A stretch of DNA of 59,083 bases from Deltaproteobacteria bacterium (lineage in GTDB: Bacteria; Desulfobacterota; Deferrisomatia; Deferrisomatales; BM512). Numbering within the stretch: position 1 is the stretch's first letter; each line of letters begins with the position of its first letter. Below, in pieces: positions 41,399-49,588 of this stretch. Under the pieces are notes generated by a model that was not told the origin of the DNA, did no database searches, and saw only the letters and a list, made by a program, of their open reading frames with translations. A program made the position numbers and the translations under genes. The stretch covers positions 1-59,083 of the forward strand of contig PKTU01000128.1 in NCBI GenBank assembly GCA_002869005.1, given 5' to 3'.

Positions 41399-42175
41399 CT
41401 AGCCGCTCCCTTTACGATACCCGTGGCTGAAGGTTGCCGCGTATAGCTTGGATGGCTCGAAATCGCTGCCGAGAATCCTCGGCCCCAGGGGGTCACCTAT
41501 GATTACCATCGACTGTTTGATAAACCCCGCCTCTTTAACCTTCGCCGCGATATCCTCAAGAGTTCCTGCTACAGAGGCCTCGTCGGGCCATCCCGCCCTC
41601 GAAACCACCGCTGCGGGGGTCTTTGGTGAACGTCCGCCCTCAAGGCAGCGCTCGACCACTTCGCCAATCCGGTCTACCGATAGGAATACGCAGAGGGTCG
41701 CGCCCGACGCGGCAAGTTTCTCAAGTGATTCCCCCTCGGGCACCGGGGTGCGCCCCGAGAGCCGAGTGAAGATCACCGTCTGGCTCACGCCGGGCAAGGT
41801 CAGTTGTGTCTTGAGAGAAGCCGCCGAAGCAAAGGCGCTCGATACGCCCGGAATAACTCTGTAAGGAATTCCGGCTTCGTCGAGGGGTACCATCTGCTCC
41901 TGAATCGCGCCGTAAAGCGATGGGTCCCCGGTGTGGAGCCTCACCACTCGCTCTCCGCGCGAGGCGTGCTCGATGCAAACGCGCGTCGTCTCCTCAAGGT
42001 TCATCGAGGCGGTATTGTGAACGGGAATGCCCTCCGGGGCATACTCAAGTAGCGCGGGGTTCACAAGGCTCCCCGCGTAGAGAACGACATCGGCGGATTC
42101 AAGGGCGCGAAGTCCCGCTACTGTTATGAGGTCGGGTGCGCCTGGCCCCGCCCCAACGAAGATCACTTCTCCCAT
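41399..42175 (-). CDS. cbiF: Cobalt-precorrin-4 C11-methyltransferase
   Basis: A 258-residue CobM/CbiF methyltransferase with VIFVGAGPGAPDLITVAGLRAL, the ADVVLYAGSLVNP strand, RLHTGDPSLYGAIQEQ, PGVSSAFASAASL and a closing MVIIGDPLG. The ATG at 42175 overlaps the cbiET stop by one base (TGATG); a TTG codon immediately before it is an alternative. Confidence 0.95.
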   Translation of the reverse strand: MGEVIFVGAGPGAPDLITVAGLRALESADVVLYAGSLVNPALLEYAPEGIPVHNTASMNLEETTRVCIEHASRGERVVRLHTGDPSLYGAIQEQMVPLDEAGIPYRVIPGVSSAFASAASLKTQLTLPGVSQTVIFTRLSGRTPVPEGESLEKLAASGATLCVFLSVDRIGEVVERCLEGGRSPKTPAAVVSRAGWPDEASVAGTLEDIAAKVKEAGFIKQSMVIIGDPLGPRILGSDFEPSKLYAATFSHGYRKGSG

Positions 42176-43398
42176 CAACTCTTTTTGCCTTTCGGTCGCG
42201 TAATGCGAAAGAGGGTTACAGGATTCTCGGCTGCCCGCATCGAGCCTTCGCCGACCTTTTTAGAGCGGCTGAAGGAGAGGTCAACCCACTCAACCTCCAT
42301 CGCGTTTTCCCGGCACCATTTAAGCGCAGCGCAAAAGGTCTCGGCTAAAACTGTGGAGACAACGACCACACCGCCCTCGCGTAGCCTGGCAAAGGACTTA
42401 TCGAGGACATCGGAGAGGAATCCGCCGGAGCCCCCGATGAAAACCCTGTCGGGCGCGGGGAGGCCATCCAGCGCCGAGGGCGCCAATCCGTCAGCTATGT
42501 AAAGGCCCGCCGTCCTGAATTTTTTTCTATTTTCCCTGATATGCTCAAGGGCTTCATGGTCACGCTCAACGGCCCACACCTGTATCGCGGGGTTTATTAG
42601 GGCGGCTTCTATACCGACCGAACCTGAACCTGCGCCGACATCCCATAGCACCGCTTTACCTCTGGGAAGAGAAAGAAGCCCCATAGCCACAGCGCGTACC
42701 GAAGATTTCGTTATTCTCCCGCGCGGATAGGTAAAGAGCTCTTCAGGGATGCCTGGACCCAGAGGGCGCGGATCCTCTTTAGTATGCACAAGGAGGACGA
42801 CGTTCAAATCCGACCCGCTCCAGTCGGCAAAGTCATGGGTAAGACCGCGCTCAATCCTCTCTTCGGGCTGGCCCAGGTCAGAGCAGACTACCATCTCAAG
42901 GTCCTCCCAGCCCGTCTCGATGAGGAAGCGGGCAATACGGGATGGGGAGTTGATGGAGTCCGTGAACAGTCCGACCTTAGGAGCCCCGAGCACTCCGACC
43001 AGCTCCTGGAGGTCACGGCCGTGGAGGCTTGCTATACGCGCGTCGGACCAGCTAAGACCGGCTTTAGCGAAGGCGACCTGCATCGATGAGACGGCGGGGC
43101 GTATTACCACCTCACCTCTGTCGAACTTTGTAAGAAGGAGGGCGGCTATACCGAAAAAGGTAGGGTCTCCCGAGGCCAGAAAAACAACCTTCAACTTCTC
43201 GTTGTTGCTCACCCGCTCGGCGATCTCCGATATCTTCCCCTCCACGAGCTCCACCTTGGAGGCAAAGCTATCAACGAGAAAGCGGTGCCTGCCAGCTGTG
43301 ACAACCAGATCCGCGTTCTCAACTATCTTTCGGCTCTCGGTGTCGAGCTTGTCGCAGCCGGGCTGTATGCCAATCACCCAAATTCTGTATTTGCTCAT
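42175..43398 (-). CDS. cbiET: Precorrin-6Y C5,15-methyltransferase, CbiE-CbiT fusion
   Basis: A 407-residue two-domain protein. The CbiE part (1-200) has IWVIGIQPGCDKLDTESR and FLASGDPTFFGIAALLL. The CbiT part (210-407) has the decarboxylating methyltransferase motif AVLWDVGAGSGSVGIEAALI and RVFIGGSGGFLSDVLDKSF. It methylates C5 and C15 and decarboxylates the C12 acetate. It overlaps the cbiD end by 4 bp (ATGA). Confidence 0.95.
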   Translation of the reverse strand: MSKYRIWVIGIQPGCDKLDTESRKIVENADLVVTAGRHRFLVDSFASKVELVEGKISEIAERVSNNEKLKVVFLASGDPTFFGIAALLLTKFDRGEVVIRPAVSSMQVAFAKAGLSWSDARIASLHGRDLQELVGVLGAPKVGLFTDSINSPSRIARFLIETGWEDLEMVVCSDLGQPEERIERGLTHDFADWSGSDLNVVLLVHTKEDPRPLGPGIPEELFTYPRGRITKSSVRAVAMGLLSLPRGKAVLWDVGAGSGSVGIEAALINPAIQVWAVERDHEALEHIRENRKKFRTAGLYIADGLAPSALDGLPAPDRVFIGGSGGFLSDVLDKSFARLREGGVVVVSTVLAETFCAALKWCRENAMEVEWVDLSFSRSKKVGEGSMRAAENPVTLFRITRPKGKKS

Positions 43399-44528
43399 AT
43401 CTTGACACCTCTTTCAAATGAGCAGCGGGCAAGCTCCTCACCTTTGTAACCGAAGAGAACCGTCTCAACCGCGATCTTGCCCTCGACACGCGCTCGAGCT
43501 CGCTCCGCGACCCTCCGGGTAAGGAGCTCAAAAAGCCCTCGGTCGCCCGACTCGCGAAGATTCTCGTAAATCTGACGCGCCGTATTCGCCTCAAGCGCTT
43601 TAGCCGCGTCGGCGGACGCGAAGCCCGCCTCCTCCATCAACTCCTTTAAGACCGACAGGTCGAGGGAGGAGTCCTTTACGTGGGTGGCGTAATGCCCCCC
43701 TGCAACCTTACAAAACTTGGCGAATTGCCCAACGATTACCGCGTCGAGGTCCCGCTCTACCGTCTTGTCTAAAGAGTACCCTACGTGGTCGCCCATTAAT
43801 ACCGCGGCATTTTCCGCCAGCTCCGGCTACAGGCTATGCCCCGCCCTTTCACTGGTGCGGCCGAAGGCGAGGAGCATCCTCTTTGCCCCAGCGGCCTTTG
43901 CCACGTCAAGGCAGGAGTCTATCGTAGCTTCCCACGCTGCGGCGGACATCGGTATTACGATGCCGGTGGTTCCTAAAATAGAGAGGCCGCCTACGATTCC
44001 CAGCCGGTGATTCAGCGTTTTCTTGGCCCTCTCGGCGCCCTCCGGGGCGCTTATGACGACCCTCAATCCGGCAACCCCTCCAGCCTTGGAGAGACGCACC
44101 GCCTCCCTTACCGATTCCTCTATCATCTCCAGGGGCACAGGGTTTATCGCCGGGCTCCCAACCTCTGCGGCGAGCCCTTTTCGGGTCACCCTGCCGACTC
44201 CCTCGCCACCCTCTATCACCACGGGAAAGGAATCGTGAGCCGCCGGCTCACTTTTATTGAGAAGTGAAACCGTTGCACGAATCTCCATGCCGTTGGTTAC
44301 GTCGGGGTCGTCGCCGCCATCCTTTATGACCCCACAGGAGAATAGGCCTCCTTCGTAGAGCTTATCAACCAGCTTAAAGGTGCGACTTGTTGCATCCCCG
44401 CGCTTCCATGGGAGATTTAAGGAAACCTCGTCGACAGGGCTACCACAAAGCGCCAAAGTCGCTCCCTTGGCGGCGGCAGCTGCGCAAGCACCTGTGGAGT
44501 AGCCGTGGCGGAGTCTCTTCTTAGCCAT
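43395..44528 (-). pseudogene. cbiD: Cobalt-precorrin-5B C1-methyltransferase, interrupted by an in-frame TAG
   Basis: CbiD is specific to oxygen-independent cobalamin synthesis. From ATG at 44528 the N-terminal part shows LRHGYSTGACAAAAAKGA, VIKDGGDDPDVTNG and GTTGIVIPMSAAAW, reaching LLAFGRTSERAGHSL. Codon 234 is TAG (43829-43827). The same frame continues PELAENAAVLMGDHVGYSLD, GQFAKFCKVAGGHYATHV to a stop at 43395. No base is gained or lost, so one substitution separates this from an intact 377-residue gene. Homologues carry an aromatic residue before P-E/D-L, so TAG probably replaces Tyr or Phe. No ribosome site precedes the ATG at 43796, so a natural two-protein split is unlikely. Confidence 0.9.
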
Positions 44529-44539
44529 AGCTTAAAAGT

Positions 44540-45193
44540 CTACACCTCACCGGCGGCGGCCTTCATGAGCGCATTTACACATGCCGCAGCGACGTTGGAG
44601 CCGCCTTTGTTACCCTTAACGGATATCCATTCGACATCGCCACGCTCCATTAGGGCGTCCTTTGATTCAGCCGCGCCGACAAAGCCGACCACCACGCCTA
44701 CGATTAGGGCCGGCTTGGCCTTACCCTCATCCACCAGCTCCAACAGTCGAAATAGTGCAGTAGGCGCGTTGCCGAAGACAAATATGGCTCCGGGGTGAAG
44801 CAGCGCGGCCTTCTCCACGGCGGCGATTGAGCGGGTTATTTTGCGCTCGCGCGCCTCCTCAACAACGCCGGGGTCGCTTATGTAGCAGAAGGTCTCCGAG
44901 CCAAATTTGGCTGCCCGCACCTTGGAGACCCCTGAACGCGCCATCTCAACATCGGTCACAATGGGAGCGCCTACATTTAGCGCCGCGACCGCCGCATCAA
45001 AAGCTCCCTCGCTCCACTTTACCAGCGGTAGAAAGGAGGGGTCCCCCGTGGCGTGGATTACCCGCCCCACCAGAGCCTTCTCCCTTGGGGAGAGGTCGGA
45101 TAGGTCAGCCAGTGTATCGATTATCTCAAAGCTGCGTTTCTCTATCTCATCGGGGCGGATATCGTAGCCCCATCTTCCTTTAAGCTCACTCAA
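44540..45193 (-). CDS. cbiC: Precorrin-8X methylmutase
   Basis: Moves the C11 methyl to C12 to give cobyrinic acid. The 217-residue protein has IEKRSFEIID, VIHATGDPSF (the catalytic-His signature), GAPIVTDVEMARSGV and VGVVVGFVGAAESKDAL with GNKGGSNVAAACVNAL. It overlaps cbiX by 4 bp and precedes cbiD by 11 bp. Confidence 0.95.
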   Translation of the reverse strand: MSELKGRWGYDIRPDEIEKRSFEIIDTLADLSDLSPREKALVGRVIHATGDPSFLPLVKWSEGAFDAAVAALNVGAPIVTDVEMARSGVSKVRAAKFGSETFCYISDPGVVEEARERKITRSIAAVEKAALLHPGAIFVFGNAPTALFRLLELVDEGKAKPALIVGVVVGFVGAAESKDALMERGDVEWISVKGNKGGSNVAAACVNALMKAAAGEV

Positions 45194-45567
45194 CTTACGC
45201 TCTCCTTTATCCTCTCAAGCGCGATCTCGGCCAACTTGGGATGCGCTCCGATGTGCGAGCTCATTACGAGCTCAAAGTCAGGGTGTTTTTGGCGCGCTTT
45301 CTCCAGCTCCTCCGGTATATCTTCAAGCACGTGAGCACCTGGGAAGAGGAAAAAGGGCATGATGGCTACCTTGCGTGCGCCTCCTTCGTAAAGCTCCTCA
45401 AGGGCGGCTCCAAGGGAGGGTTCCGCCAGCTGTAAAAAAGCCGGTTTGACTTTAACTCCTCCCATAGCAACCGAAAGCATCGCGGCCACCTCGCCAAGGG
45501 GTAAATTGGCCGCGGCAACGCGGCTACCGTGGCCCAATAACAGGACCGCGTCCAGCGTACCTTCCAT
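45190..45567 (-). CDS. cbiX: Sirohydrochlorin cobaltochelatase, short CbiX type
   Basis: About 125 residues, the size of single-domain CbiX. It has the metal-binding His in AVLLLGHGSR, PAFLQLAEPSLGAAL and the second His in MPFFLFPGAHVLEDIPEEL. It inserts cobalt early in the anaerobic cobalamin route. The start at 45567 is chosen because GGGAGAG lies 6 bases upstream. The frame is open to an ATG at 45648 that would add a Cys/His-rich extension (CKHHCAHHF) but lacks a ribosome site. It is the first corrin gene, 117 bp after the histidine kinase gene. Confidence 0.9.
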   Translation of the reverse strand: MEGTLDAVLLLGHGSRVAAANLPLGEVAAMLSVAMGGVKVKPAFLQLAEPSLGAALEELYEGGARKVAIMPFFLFPGAHVLEDIPEELEKARQKHPDFELVMSSHIGAHPKLAEIALERIKESVS

Positions 45568-45684
45568 AATAGACTCTCCCGGAGAAAATATCAGGTTTTT
45601 CCATATGAAGTGATGAGCGCAGTGATGCTTGCACAAGGGGCCATTCATGTCAAGAAATGGGCGGATGTATTTGCCCTCGAACCT

Positions 45685-47067
45685 TCACCCCGCCAAGGGT
45701 ACCGTAAAGGTAAAAGTCGCGCCCTTACCCGGTGGCGACTCCACCCAGATATATCCGCCCAACCGCTCTACTATATCCCGGCAAATGGAGAGCCCGAGGC
45801 CCGTTCCTAGAGACTGGTGTTTTTGCGGGTCTCTAAGCTGCTTGAAGCGGTCGAATATCTCTCTTAGTTTTGACTGGTCTATCCCCGGCCCCTCGTCGGT
45901 AACGGAAATTACAGCAAAGCCCCCTCGCCTACGGGCCCTGATCAGCACCTGTGAACCAAAGGGTGAAAATTTCGACGCATTGCCGAGGAGGTTTGTCATA
46001 ACCTGCATTAAACGGTCGAAATCCGCGAGGGCAGGCGGCAGGCTGCGCTCCACATTTATGACAAGTTTTACATTGTTTTTATCAAATAGTGCGCGGGCGC
46101 TCTGCGTGGCCTTCTTTATTACCGCATCGAGAGGGACCGGCACCAACTCTACATCAAGTTTACCTGCTTCTATTTTGGAGTAATCGAGAAGGTCGTTGAT
46201 CATCCTTGTAAGGCGATCCGCCTCATCGTGAATGATCTCAGCGAATTTACGCCTTTTTTCCCGGTCATCGACATCGTAGCGCAAAAATATCTCGGAGAAA
46301 GATTTTATCGAGGTCAGCGGGGTCCTGAGCTCGTGGCTTACGTTTGAAAGAAATTCGCTTTTGACTCGGTCGAGCTCAAGGAGGCGAGTATTGGCTGCTT
46401 CGAGTTCGGCTGTGCGCTGACGCACCCTCTCCTCCATAACGACGCTGGCGTTGTGGACCTGGCTGTAGAGTCTGGCGTTGACCACGGATAGCGCCATCTG
46501 GTTTGCGAGCGCTTGTAAAAGTGAGATGAACTGCTCGCCAAACTTCTCCGGTCCGCGCGTTGAGTAAAACATCAATACGCCAATCGGTTTGCCCTCATGG
46601 ATCATAGGCACATGCACCATAGCCTTTACTGGCAGCGCCATCGAGAGCATCTCAAAATAGGGGGAGTGCGGCATCTTGGTCGTGTCGCGAACCACCACCG
46701 GCTTGGCGTCGAGGAAGGCTCTTCCGAACATCGTATAGCGGGTCGGCACCAGCTTTGTGGCCTCGGCATAATCGGTGTCAAGGCCAATAGCGGCCTTGAC
46801 CTCCAGCTGACCCCTTTCATTCAGCAGCCTCACGCCCATATGCTGAAAGCCGAAGTTCCTTCGCATCAGATCCAGTATAGCGTCAAGAACCTCTTTTAGG
46901 TCGAAGGAAGCCGACAACGTCGAGGAAGCTTCATGGAGGACCGAGAGGTCCCTGAGGCGTCTTTCAAGCTCTGTGCGTCCGGCCGCAAGTCTCCCCAGGA
47001 GCACCCCTGTAAAGAGCGCCCCCATCGCTAGCCCGATTAGCAGCGCGGCGAGGTATATGGAGGCCAT
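45685..47067 (-). CDS. Membrane GAF-domain sensor histidine kinase
   Basis: A 460-residue kinase with one N-terminal membrane helix (residues 4-27), a GAF domain (about 45-200), a coiled coil (205-240), HisKA with phospho-acceptor H245 in SNVSHELRTPLTSI and a complete ATPase domain (NLLGNASKFSP, DEGPGID, GTGLGLSIC). It lies 26 bp downstream of the pseudokinase-exonuclease gene and may supply the catalytic kinase for the adjacent receiver protein. The ligand is unknown. Confidence 0.92.
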   Translation of the reverse strand: MASIYLAALLIGLAMGALFTGVLLGRLAAGRTELERRLRDLSVLHEASSTLSASFDLKEVLDAILDLMRRNFGFQHMGVRLLNERGQLEVKAAIGLDTDYAEATKLVPTRYTMFGRAFLDAKPVVVRDTTKMPHSPYFEMLSMALPVKAMVHVPMIHEGKPIGVLMFYSTRGPEKFGEQFISLLQALANQMALSVVNARLYSQVHNASVVMEERVRQRTAELEAANTRLLELDRVKSEFLSNVSHELRTPLTSIKSFSEIFLRYDVDDREKRRKFAEIIHDEADRLTRMINDLLDYSKIEAGKLDVELVPVPLDAVIKKATQSARALFDKNNVKLVINVERSLPPALADFDRLMQVMTNLLGNASKFSPFGSQVLIRARRRGGFAVISVTDEGPGIDQSKLREIFDRFKQLRDPQKHQSLGTGLGLSICRDIVERLGGYIWVESPPGKGATFTFTVPLAG

Positions 47068-47093
47068 CGACTCTCCTCAGCGACCTTCTGTCG

Positions 47094-49226
47094 CTAATAG
47101 CGTGAATTCTGCCAGCGCAAGATCAACATCCTGTCGCAGAACGCCTTCGCCTCTGCAAGGGTCCTCACACCCCTCGCGGCAAGGAGTGGAATGAGCTTTA
47201 CAAGTATCTCCGCCGTGGCCCGGGCGTCGCCTAGCGAGGTATGCCGCCCCTCGATGGTTACGCCAAGCCTGTCGGAGATTGCGTCAAGGCTGTGCCCCTG
47301 CAAGTCTCCGTGGACGCCAAAGGAGAGAAAGAGGGTGTCGATGACGGGGTTGTCCATTGAGACGAGGTCGTTTTCCCTTGCCGCCAATTCAAGAAATTTC
47401 ATATCAAAGGCGGCATTATGCGCAACGATAACCGCATCCCCCACGTACTCCTTGAAATCCTCAAATGCCTCGGCCATTTTGGGGGCGCCGGCCACCATCT
47501 CATCCGTAACGCCATGAAACTTTACCGACTCCGGCGGAATCGGAATTCCCGGGTCAACGAGGGTGTGAAAAACCCCGGCGGAAAGCACTTTACCCCGCCT
47601 AACCCTTACCCCGCTAAGGGAGACGACTTTATCCCCCTTGGCCGGACTAAGCCCGGTGGTCTCCGTGTCAAAAACGACGAATTCAAGCTTCGCCAGATCT
47701 TGGGAGAGAAGGTCACCGGTTTCGAAACCGGGTCTGGCTTGAAAAAGGTCGAAATCATAGAACTCAGGCTGGTCGTCCACAATCCTTGCGCCGCCATCTG
47801 CTTCAGGCAGTTGTGACGCCTTCACCATTCCCAGGCGCACCTCAAAATCTTCCCCGTGGGAGCGGGTCCATATCTCGCCCCTGTTACGCCTCACCGCTTC
47901 ATATAGAGTTATCGGCTCCTCGCCCTCCACCTCAACGACAAGTGCATTCATCTCATCCGGCGAGATATCCTTAGCCCCCGCCAGGCTGAAAGTGGTAACT
48001 ACCATCTCTCCCTCGGCCTCAATTGACGCAACCACCGGGCTCCAGCCTGATGAATGAGAGGCAAGCCAACCAATAACAGTGGACATTGCCGCAACCCAAC
48101 CAAATGGTTCCGCCGCGACTGGGGGCAGATGCTCGGGGGCGTTGGCAAGCTCGGCATAAACCCCCTTGCTTGCCGCCAGGGCCTCGGCAACTATCGAGTG
48201 GGCATCGGCCGGTTGCCCGGGCCATAATGCGCTCGGCATGGAGTTGGCTACCTCTTCGCCTTCGCCCAGCATCTTCAGACAAGCATTCGCCTCTCCGTGT
48301 AATGCTGCGGCGAAAGCTTTTCGTTTCTCTTCCGGCAGATCTTTGCGGGTTTCCAAAATTTCCGCGAGCGATTGCATTGAAGATAGCGGTGAGCGCAACA
48401 TTGAGGGGAGCTTGCGCAAATGCATATCCACTCGTTTGTCCCTCTCGGCCTCTTCCGTAAGGTCCCGAAACGCGAGCAGGTAGCCGGCCAGCCCATAATT
48501 ATGCTCCGGCATCGCCGCCATTACACCTTTGAGAAGGCGCCCACCCACCAGGGGGAAGATCACCGGTTCGACCATATCCCGCCGCCCCTCTTCCCAGGCC
48601 AAGCGCAGCTGTTTCAGGTGGTATTCAACTCGCTTAGCCGGCAACACCTGCGTAAGTTTTCGCCCAAGCGCGGGGTTGCTGCCGGTGCATAGAGCCGCCC
48701 GGGCTCGTGGGTTCATCAAGAGGACTTCACCCTGCTCATTAAGGACGACAAGCCCCTCGACCATGGTTCTTAAAACCGAAGCAAGGCGGCTTTTCTCACC
48801 CTGAAGCGATACGGTGACTTCCCTGACCCTCTCTTCCAACTCGCTGTAAGCGCCTTCGAGAGCCTCCGCCATAGAGTTGAAATCCGCCGCTAGAGATTCA
48901 AGCTCGTCGCCGGTAGTAACGTCGATGCGGTGCGACAGGTTGATCCTTGACACTATCTCCGCGCCCCCCCTTATCTTGAGGAGCGGCGAGAGCAGCTTGT
49001 CTGCAAACCGCCACGCCATCGCTACGCACACGACGACAAGGATGCTGCCGAGGACGTAGACTCTCAACATAAAATGAGGAGTTGAACCGACAGATTCGGG
49101 AAGGGATGTAAGAAGAGCCAATACCGCTAGCGCGAAGGGGCAAACAGCCAGCAACACTATCGCCGAGACGAGGCGAACTCGAATTCTTTGAGTGAATGGT
49201 ATCTGGCGGTCTTGGGCAGGGGTCAT
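47094..49226 (-). CDS. Membrane pseudokinase fused to a DnaQ-type 3'-5' exonuclease
   Basis: A 710-residue protein with two membrane helices (about 19-40 and 53-73) and a loop of only about a dozen residues between them, HAMP (73-125), PAS-like (150-255), a dimerisation-helix remnant (258-320), an ATPase-like remnant (335-480) and a DEDDh exonuclease (513-695). Where kinases have SHELRTPL this protein has PSMLRSPL, so the phospho-acceptor His aligns with Ser275; the N and G boxes are not recognisable. The exonuclease keeps D520 and E522 (FDTETTG), D608 (HNAAFD), H662 and D667 (HTSLGD). The start overlaps the receiver gene by 4 bp. A signal-controlled nuclease on DNA or RNA is inferred. Confidence 0.88.
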   Translation of the reverse strand: MTPAQDRQIPFTQRIRVRLVSAIVLLAVCPFALAVLALLTSLPESVGSTPHFMLRVYVLGSILVVVCVAMAWRFADKLLSPLLKIRGGAEIVSRINLSHRIDVTTGDELESLAADFNSMAEALEGAYSELEERVREVTVSLQGEKSRLASVLRTMVEGLVVLNEQGEVLLMNPRARAALCTGSNPALGRKLTQVLPAKRVEYHLKQLRLAWEEGRRDMVEPVIFPLVGGRLLKGVMAAMPEHNYGLAGYLLAFRDLTEEAERDKRVDMHLRKLPSMLRSPLSSMQSLAEILETRKDLPEEKRKAFAAALHGEANACLKMLGEGEEVANSMPSALWPGQPADAHSIVAEALAASKGVYAELANAPEHLPPVAAEPFGWVAAMSTVIGWLASHSSGWSPVVASIEAEGEMVVTTFSLAGAKDISPDEMNALVVEVEGEEPITLYEAVRRNRGEIWTRSHGEDFEVRLGMVKASQLPEADGGARIVDDQPEFYDFDLFQARPGFETGDLLSQDLAKLEFVVFDTETTGLSPAKGDKVVSLSGVRVRRGKVLSAGVFHTLVDPGIPIPPESVKFHGVTDEMVAGAPKMAEAFEDFKEYVGDAVIVAHNAAFDMKFLELAARENDLVSMDNPVIDTLFLSFGVHGDLQGHSLDAISDRLGVTIEGRHTSLGDARATAEILVKLIPLLAARGVRTLAEAKAFCDRMLILRWQNSRY

Positions 49227-49588
49227 TTTTCCAATAAGGCGCGTATCTCCGCCACCAGCTCACCGGCATGGAAGGGTTTTGTTATGTAGGAATCCGCGCC
49301 CACCTCAAGGCCCTTTTTACGCTCAAGGGGTTGGCCCTTGGCCGTAAGCATTATCACCTTGGGAGGCGCTTCACGGGATTTTAGGATGCGACAGACCTCA
49401 TACCCGTCGCGCCTCGGCATTGCTACGTCCAGCAACACTATGGCCGGCGCAAAGATCTTTGCTCTCTCTAAAGCCTCCTCGCCATCTCCCGCAGTTTTAA
49501 CCTCAAACCCCTCCTCCTCAAGAATAAATTCCAGAGAGAGTAGAATATTTGGCTCATCGTCAACGACGAGGACCTTTTCCTTCGACAT
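49223..49588 (-). CDS. Single-domain response regulator
   Basis: A 121-residue receiver without output domain: acidic pair DD at 10-11, phospho-acceptor D54 in IVLLDVAMP, Thr in IMLTAKG and Lys in YITKPF. It is the first gene of the run receiver, pseudokinase-exonuclease, GAF kinase. GGAGG lies 6 bases before the ATG. It probably acts by protein contact, possibly on the fused exonuclease. Confidence 0.93.
   Translation of the reverse strand: MSKEKVLVVDDEPNILLSLEFILEEEGFEVKTAGDGEEALERAKIFAPAIVLLDVAMPRRDGYEVCRILKSREAPPKVIMLTAKGQPLERKKGLEVGADSYITKPFHAGELVAEIRALLEK

Follow-up and report, generated by a model that had tools for sequence, protein, structure and literature searches.

The window (the whole 59,083-nucleotide stretch of DNA that was analysed) carries on its minus strand an ORF of 710 aa that starts with ATG, contains no internal stops and encodes a protein with the domain order TM-TM-HAMP-PAS-DHp-like-CA-like-DEDDh. 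It lies between a receiver gene and a histidine kinase gene on the same strand, and the features of the locus are as follows.

49223-49588, minus strand: single-domain receiver (CheY-like), 121 aa, upstream partner of the fusion (Pfam Response_reg, 105 bits); ATGA overlap with the fusion start
47094-49226, minus strand: predicted membrane pseudokinase-DEDDh exonuclease fusion, 710 aa (Pfam, homologue alignments, structure model)
49005-49172, minus strand: two TM helices separated by a short outside loop, residues ~19-40 and ~53-74 (hydropathy by eye; model helices 11-40 and 50-94)
48855-49001, minus strand: HAMP, residues 76-124 (Pfam, 35.9 bits)
48447-48764, minus strand: PAS, residues 155-260 (Pfam PAS_4, 28.5 bits; model strands and helices 158-255)
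48240-48413, minus strand: degenerate DHp helical hairpin, residues 272-329 (hhalign; Foldseek to HK853-RR468, DivL and RetS)
48402-48404, minus strand: Ser275 codon, at the phospho-acceptor site of the fusion DHp; Arg278 (+3) is kept
47817-48218, minus strand: degenerate CA (ATPase-like) domain, residues 337-470, without N, G1 and G2 boxes (HATPase_c 0/65; CA-type model fold, pLDDT ~90+)
47742-47765, minus strand: EFYDFDLF linker motif, residues 488-495, behind a flexible linker, 476-491 (homologue alignments; linker pLDDT < 50)
47202-47678, minus strand: DEDDh exonuclease, residues 517-675 (Pfam RNase_T, 117 bits; PolC exonuclease, 1.6 A over 188 columns)
45685-47067, minus strand: TM-GAF-HisKA-HATPase kinase, 460 aa, downstream of the fusion (HisKA 80.8 bits, HATPase_c 107.7 bits)

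A sequence-only reading of this DNA had described the layout of a sensor kinase (two membrane helices, HAMP, PAS, dimerisation helices and an ATPase-like fold), a description upheld by Pfam, hydropathy, the structure model and Foldseek; the residue numbers it gave for the fusion were all correct. The model, built with AlphaFold2 from an alignment of 65 homologues (mean pLDDT 86.9), comprises two long N-terminal membrane helices, a HAMP/coiled coil, the PAS domain, a hairpin (273-293 and 299-329) and a CA-type domain (337-470), with the disordered linker (476-491) joining this histidine-kinase fold to a PolC/DnaQ-like exonuclease. The EFYDFDLF motif was near-invariant in one homologue alignment, and F492 was invariant in another. 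In Foldseek searches the N-terminal part of the model matched WalK/VicK and the C-terminal part matched the PolC exonuclease (1.6 A), as well as DnaQ and DinG. Residues 258-486 alone matched HK853-RR468, YycG, DivL and RetS nearly full length (~230 residues), with whole-length TM-scores of just ~0.4-0.5 because the two subdomains of this region differ in orientation. Most relatives in the window's order also have a ~190-aa extracytoplasmic domain between the TM helices, which is missing from the window's fusion.

The kinase half has lost the residues of catalysis. HisKA scored 16.5 bits, below the Pfam cut-off of 26.9, and HATPase_c was unmatched. Using profile-profile alignment (hhalign), we compared region 258-486 of the 65 homologues with the DHp-CA regions of 34 neighbouring kinases; the two profiles aligned at 99.7% (E 3e-26), placing Ser275 opposite the phospho-acceptor His, whilst the invariant N, DxGxG and GxGxG residues of the kinase profile found no counterpart in the window's fusion. 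Across the 65 diverse homologues the phospho-acceptor column holds no His at all (E 37, D 6, K 5, S 4, R 4), and Pfam detected HATPase_c in 0/65 and HisKA, weakly, in 8/65. The partner kinases of fusion loci, for their part, keep every catalytic box (34 DHp-CA regions). Measured against a histidine kinase, the fusion thus has the DHp-CA fold, as found by Foldseek, and lacks the phospho-acceptor His and the ATP-binding N, G1, F and G2 boxes. The replacement of His by Ser275 and the loss of the ATP-binding boxes, both claimed from the letters alone, were therefore confirmed, and an intact HisKA His with ATPase boxes, named beforehand as the finding that would overturn them, did not appear in the profile alignment. 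On sequence grounds the fusion is a pseudokinase whose kinase half is dead.

The exonuclease half presents the opposite picture, as had been proposed for D520, E522, D608, H662 and D667: these residues and H603 are invariant in 65/65 homologues, so that none of them lacks the exonuclease catalytic residues, and the D-E-D-H-D set sits on an RNase H-like fold that superimposes on PolC and epsilon at 1.6-2.4 A. Relative to the sister species, dN/dS was 0.039 over the whole fusion, falling to 0.019 in the exonuclease and rising to 0.073 in the CA-like part, values that are rough given synonymous sites near saturation. Together, this invariance and a dN/dS of 0.04 agree with the proposal that kinase residues were lost whilst nuclease residues were kept under selection, and the exonuclease domain is apparently intact and predicted to be an active nuclease. 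Maximum-likelihood analysis grouped the fusion exonucleases together (support 95/98), apart from epsilon subunits and stand-alone exonucleases; as such, the architecture probably came together a single time and has been kept since. The fusion's DEDDh domain is the sole RNase_T match in its own genome, and the same is true of 8 further genomes among the order's 12; in these nine genomes the RNase_T search detected no separate epsilon subunit.

The expected translational coupling to a lone receiver was found in the ATGA overlap between 49223-49588 and the fusion start. The window's receiver carries D10, D11, D54, T82 and K104, and among the adjacent receivers of fusion loci D54 is present in 62/63 and K104 in 63/63. 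The downstream gene had been called an intact GAF kinase; its intactness stands (HisKA 80.8 bits, HATPase_c 107.7 bits), and its identity was corrected to that of a transporter-less SLC5-GAF-histidine kinase, as it is 58% identical, over 426 aa without gaps, to residues 625-1050 of a 1063-residue SLC5-GAF-HisKA-HATPase protein in genome G035, where that protein comes after the fusion. It is also 56% identical to the SLC5-GAF-HK of genome G007. The window's kinase lacks the N-terminal SLC5 domain that homologous kinases in most of the order do have, and no match to the transporter half was found in its own genome (92% complete). Judging from these alignments, the window's GAF kinase is probably the cytosolic half of an SLC5 transceptor kinase whose transporter was shed in this lineage.

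In order to establish how widespread the architecture is, we scanned one genome per species (84,980 species) and confirmed at least 551 loci across several phyla, bearing out the suspicion that related fusions exist elsewhere. The fusion is present in 12/12 genomes of the window's order, and in the phylum beyond the order there was a full-length match in 1/47 genomes searched (G035, 47% identity). The 80 loci examined were the best 80 of at least 551, that is, the closest relatives and not a random sample; they came from Alpha-, Beta- and Gammaproteobacteria, Desulfobacterota, Magnetococcales and MAGs labelled Nitrospirota and Spirochaetia. The homologue of Paracoccus denitrificans PD1222 (WP_011751332.1) lies on plasmid 1, at the locus PDEN_RS25405-25415, and is annotated 'exonuclease domain-containing protein'. 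An origin as plasmid cargo was rejected, as plasmid matches were mostly partial and the fusion homologues there sit on large Paracoccus and Cupriavidus replicons. A chance or annotation artefact was likewise rejected, given the order-wide and multi-phylum conservation and a dN/dS of 0.04. Searches of the literature, in a collection poor in subscription papers, found no paper describing the architecture.

The gene neighbourhood recurs along with the fusion. A receiver lies directly upstream in 62 of the best 80 loci (of at least 551), mostly with the 4-base ATGA overlap, and in 12 relatives compared at locus level (11 of the order plus G035) the receiver is adjacent in 12/12 and the kinase in 11/12. 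The remaining 18 of the best 80 of at least 551 loci, a few of them at contig ends, have no recognisable receiver directly upstream, so some loci may have no need of one. In the same set (best 80 of at least 551), an SLC5-HisKA-HATPase kinase of CrbS/CbrA type, or a shortened form, is present at 50 loci, at 33 of them as kinase-receiver-fusion on a single strand; and a DUF294 nucleotidyltransferase occurs at 46, an SSF symporter at 29, DUF4212 at 19 and acetyl-CoA synthetase (Acs) at 16. As DUF294 has only ~0.6 matches per million bases in the order (~25 in 12 genomes), its occurrence in 46 of 80 stretches of 20 kb or less is far above chance, and the recurring SLC5 kinase, SSF symporter, DUF4212, DUF294 and Acs point towards monocarboxylate/carbon-source control. 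The DUF294 gene of the window's own genome is on another contig (G000:C106:9925-12095), divergent beside an SSF symporter, a pairing seen also in G001, G007 and G011. A member of the same family as the window (G003, locus L037) has the receiver and a fusion that keeps the extracytoplasmic domain, with a TPR/BTAD-type protein replacing the kinase.

In the window, the signalling cassette heads a cobalamin cluster, cbiX-cbiC-cbiD-cbiE/T (42175-49588, minus strand; gaps of 26 and 36 bases), and the same cassette-cobalamin order is found in four families of the order including the window's (L035, L036, L040, L042 and L043). Since the cassette runs on into cbi genes in four families, cobalamin-dependent metabolism is a possible local output. 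An in-frame TAG (43827-43829) breaks the cbiD gene (43395-44528, minus strand) into ORFs of 233 and 133 aa, where the sister species has an unbroken 377-aa frame; this represents either a recent nonsense mutation or a fault in the assembly. Rfam detected no known RNA element, such as a cobalamin riboswitch, in 30000-54000, and promoter and terminator scans scored no higher than shuffles. With the transporter half gone, DUF294 unlinked and the cassette heading a cobalamin cluster, the link to acetate or pyruvate is weaker in the window.

We also compared the fusion DHp with the DHp of the kinase at its own locus (39 pairs). Residues are retained at +3 (92%), +6 (64%), +10 (79%), +11 (82%) and +14 (85%), positions that share one helix face, whilst 0, +1, +4 and +7 are lost; Arg at +3 (Arg278) is found in 61/65 homologues. 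At +11, identity to the own-locus kinase is 82% vs 58% for shuffled pairs (0 of 2000 shuffles reached it), although few independent lineages are represented, and -1 likewise matches the own-locus kinase above shuffled values (0 of 2000 shuffles). In DivL, Arg553 (+3) and Gly561 (+11) belong to the interface modelled with DivK, and binding is weaker in the R553A mutant (PMC4211667). The pattern is suggestive of a putative receiver-docking face kept by the fusion DHp, the signal being inflated by the shared ancestry of the loci.

The conservation of receiver-fusion coupling over several phyla provides strong circumstantial support for the circuit proposed in the sequence-only reading, from kinase to receiver to exonuclease. 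A route from kinase through receiver and pseudokinase to exonuclease is the best-supported arrangement, to which we would give an even chance of being right. Under it, the GAF kinase, coupled elsewhere to an SLC5 transporter, would phosphorylate the stand-alone receiver, and the phosphorylated receiver would dock on the dead DHp/CA core of the pseudokinase, much as DivK~P does on DivL. Docking, along with input from PAS and HAMP/membrane, might then shift the coiled-coil core and thereby release or restrain the DEDDh 3'-5' exonuclease on its flexible linker. The output would most likely be turnover of RNA (or short nucleic acid) in response to carbon sources, acetate or pyruvate for example, and carbon-source-linked RNA or oligonucleotide turnover is the likeliest role. 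A comparable setting exists in Pseudomonas putida, where the operon of pp_0354 and pp_0353 (a CBS protein and an exonuclease) is bound by ErdR and is a target of MxtR/ErdR (CrbS/R) (PMC9927547). Deletion of pp_0353 impairs growth on pyruvate, a plasmid complements the defect, and the authors speculate on mRNA decay (PMC9927547). Since the fusion clade does not include the DUF294-linked exonucleases of Pseudomonas, pp_0353 supports the setting (a nuclease in carbon-source control), not identity, and the fusion was rejected as its equivalent.

Other readings share part of this evidence. The fusion could be an independent membrane sensor in which HAMP/PAS input runs the exonuclease directly, the kinase-receiver pair having another target and sharing only the operon. 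That HAMP and PAS are kept, that order-level relatives have an extra extracytoplasmic domain and that some loci have no adjacent receiver all fit this reading, which we nevertheless consider rather unlikely: receiver and fusion keep their overlap-coupled order in several phyla, the receiver brings no output domain, and the DHp/CA fold, superfluous to such a sensor, is retained and under purifying selection. We are more doubtful that the exonuclease trims or undoes the product of the DUF294 nucleotidyltransferase, the writer-eraser pair setting the activity of the transporter or kinase. DEDDh relatives (PolC, DnaQ, DinG, RNase T) work on nucleic acid ends, the window's DUF294 is unlinked, and deletion of P. 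putida pp_0354 does not produce the pyruvate defect of the exonuclease deletion (PMC9927547); to be set against this are the presence of DUF294 in 46/80 fusion loci (best 80 of at least 551), its position beside stand-alone Pseudomonas exonucleases, such that two exonuclease lineages share the partner, and the prediction that a DUF294-type protein of Pseudomonas fluorescens nucleotidylates protein (PMC5715377).

Repair or defence, the further roles put forward in the sequence-only reading, fared poorly. If the genome's only DnaQ-type domain served DNA polymerase III as a membrane-tethered replicative or repair proofreader, this would explain why nine of the order's 12 genomes, the window's own among them, have no other RNase_T match, and the PolC exonuclease is indeed the nearest solved relative. 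The two-component context speaks against it, the five other fusion-bearing genomes that were searched also have separate DnaQ-like genes, and DnaE of the window's own genome has an intact-looking PHP domain of HLHLH/DHG type, so that proofreading is probably supplied elsewhere; we therefore regard this role as very improbable. Slighter again is the chance of a phage defence or abortive-infection nuclease. The PADLOC DEDDh and PDC-S48 models do match the exonuclease domain, but only as a generic domain alongside weak partial matches, no specific PADLOC defence-system model was matched by the proteins, and, unlike defence islands, the gene occurs in 12/12 genomes of the order, where genes of signalling and metabolism recur beside it.

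Returning to the circuit from kinase through receiver and pseudokinase to exonuclease, a far broader proposal can be framed, one that we offer as speculation and think unlikely to hold in full: that receiver-reading membrane pseudokinases gating a DEDDh exonuclease are a widespread, unnamed two-component output, paired in many genomes with DUF294, with nucleotides added by one and removed by the other, such that nutrient-transport signalling would proceed via nucleic-acid or nucleotidyl turnover, not transcription. Two-component outputs are known mostly as transcriptional, cyclic-nucleotide or motility responses. If true, a direct nuclease output would be added to these systems, a second kind of receiver-reading pseudokinase would follow DivL, and a target would be supplied for the lone receivers beside SLC5 transceptor kinases. 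Hundreds of genomes carry the trio of kinase, lone receiver and pseudokinase-nuclease close to genes for carbon uptake, with no annotation beyond 'exonuclease domain-containing protein', and tractable hosts carrying the fusion include Paracoccus, Azospirillum, Colwellia and Denitromonas.

Amongst known systems, DivL/DivK of Caulobacter (PMC4211667) shares with the fusion a DHp-CA core without the phospho-acceptor His, a single-domain receiver partner, a PAS domain and the DHp Arg at +3, which DivL requires for DivK~P binding. The target of DivL, however, is the kinase CckA, and DivL carries no nuclease, whereas receiver binding by the fusion is a proposal from gene adjacency; on that proposal the fusion would behave like a DivL-type reader with a DEDDh output. 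The SLC5-STAC transceptor kinases CrbS/R, CbrA/B and RpuS/R (PMC5715377, PMC9100948) are of the same SLC5-HisKA-HATPase type as the partner kinases (50/80; best 80 of at least 551), and CrbS/R-type systems and fusion loci share SSF symporters, DUF4212, DUF294 and Acs as neighbours. CrbR, though, is a transcriptional activator, whilst the receiver of fusion loci has no output domain and lies next to the nuclease fusion, and the window's kinase is without the SLC5 half. P. putida pp_0353/pp_0354 (PMC9927547) has in common an RNase_T exonuclease, a CBS/DUF294-type protein and CrbS/R-type control, but Pseudomonas genes of this layout encode stand-alone exonucleases of ~253 aa with no membrane or kinase-like part, on a separate tree branch. 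The Pseudomonas loci found with this layout carry DUF294, and the exonuclease-DUF294 pairs at L151, L156, L158, L162 and others form a lineage of their own, so that DUF294-DEDDh pairing is seen in two exonuclease lineages. With PolC and the DnaQ epsilon subunit (PDB 2p1j, 9qpc, 1j53) the fusion shares the fold, the five catalytic residues and ~30% identity, at 1.6-2.4 A for most, yet its exonuclease stands outside a polymerase, behind a pseudokinase with an EFYDFDLF linker, in its own clade. Finally, WP_011751332.1 of P. denitrificans PD1222 is 31% identical over most of its length and has a receiver directly upstream, followed by an SLC5-type kinase and DUF294; it differs in being annotated by domain only.
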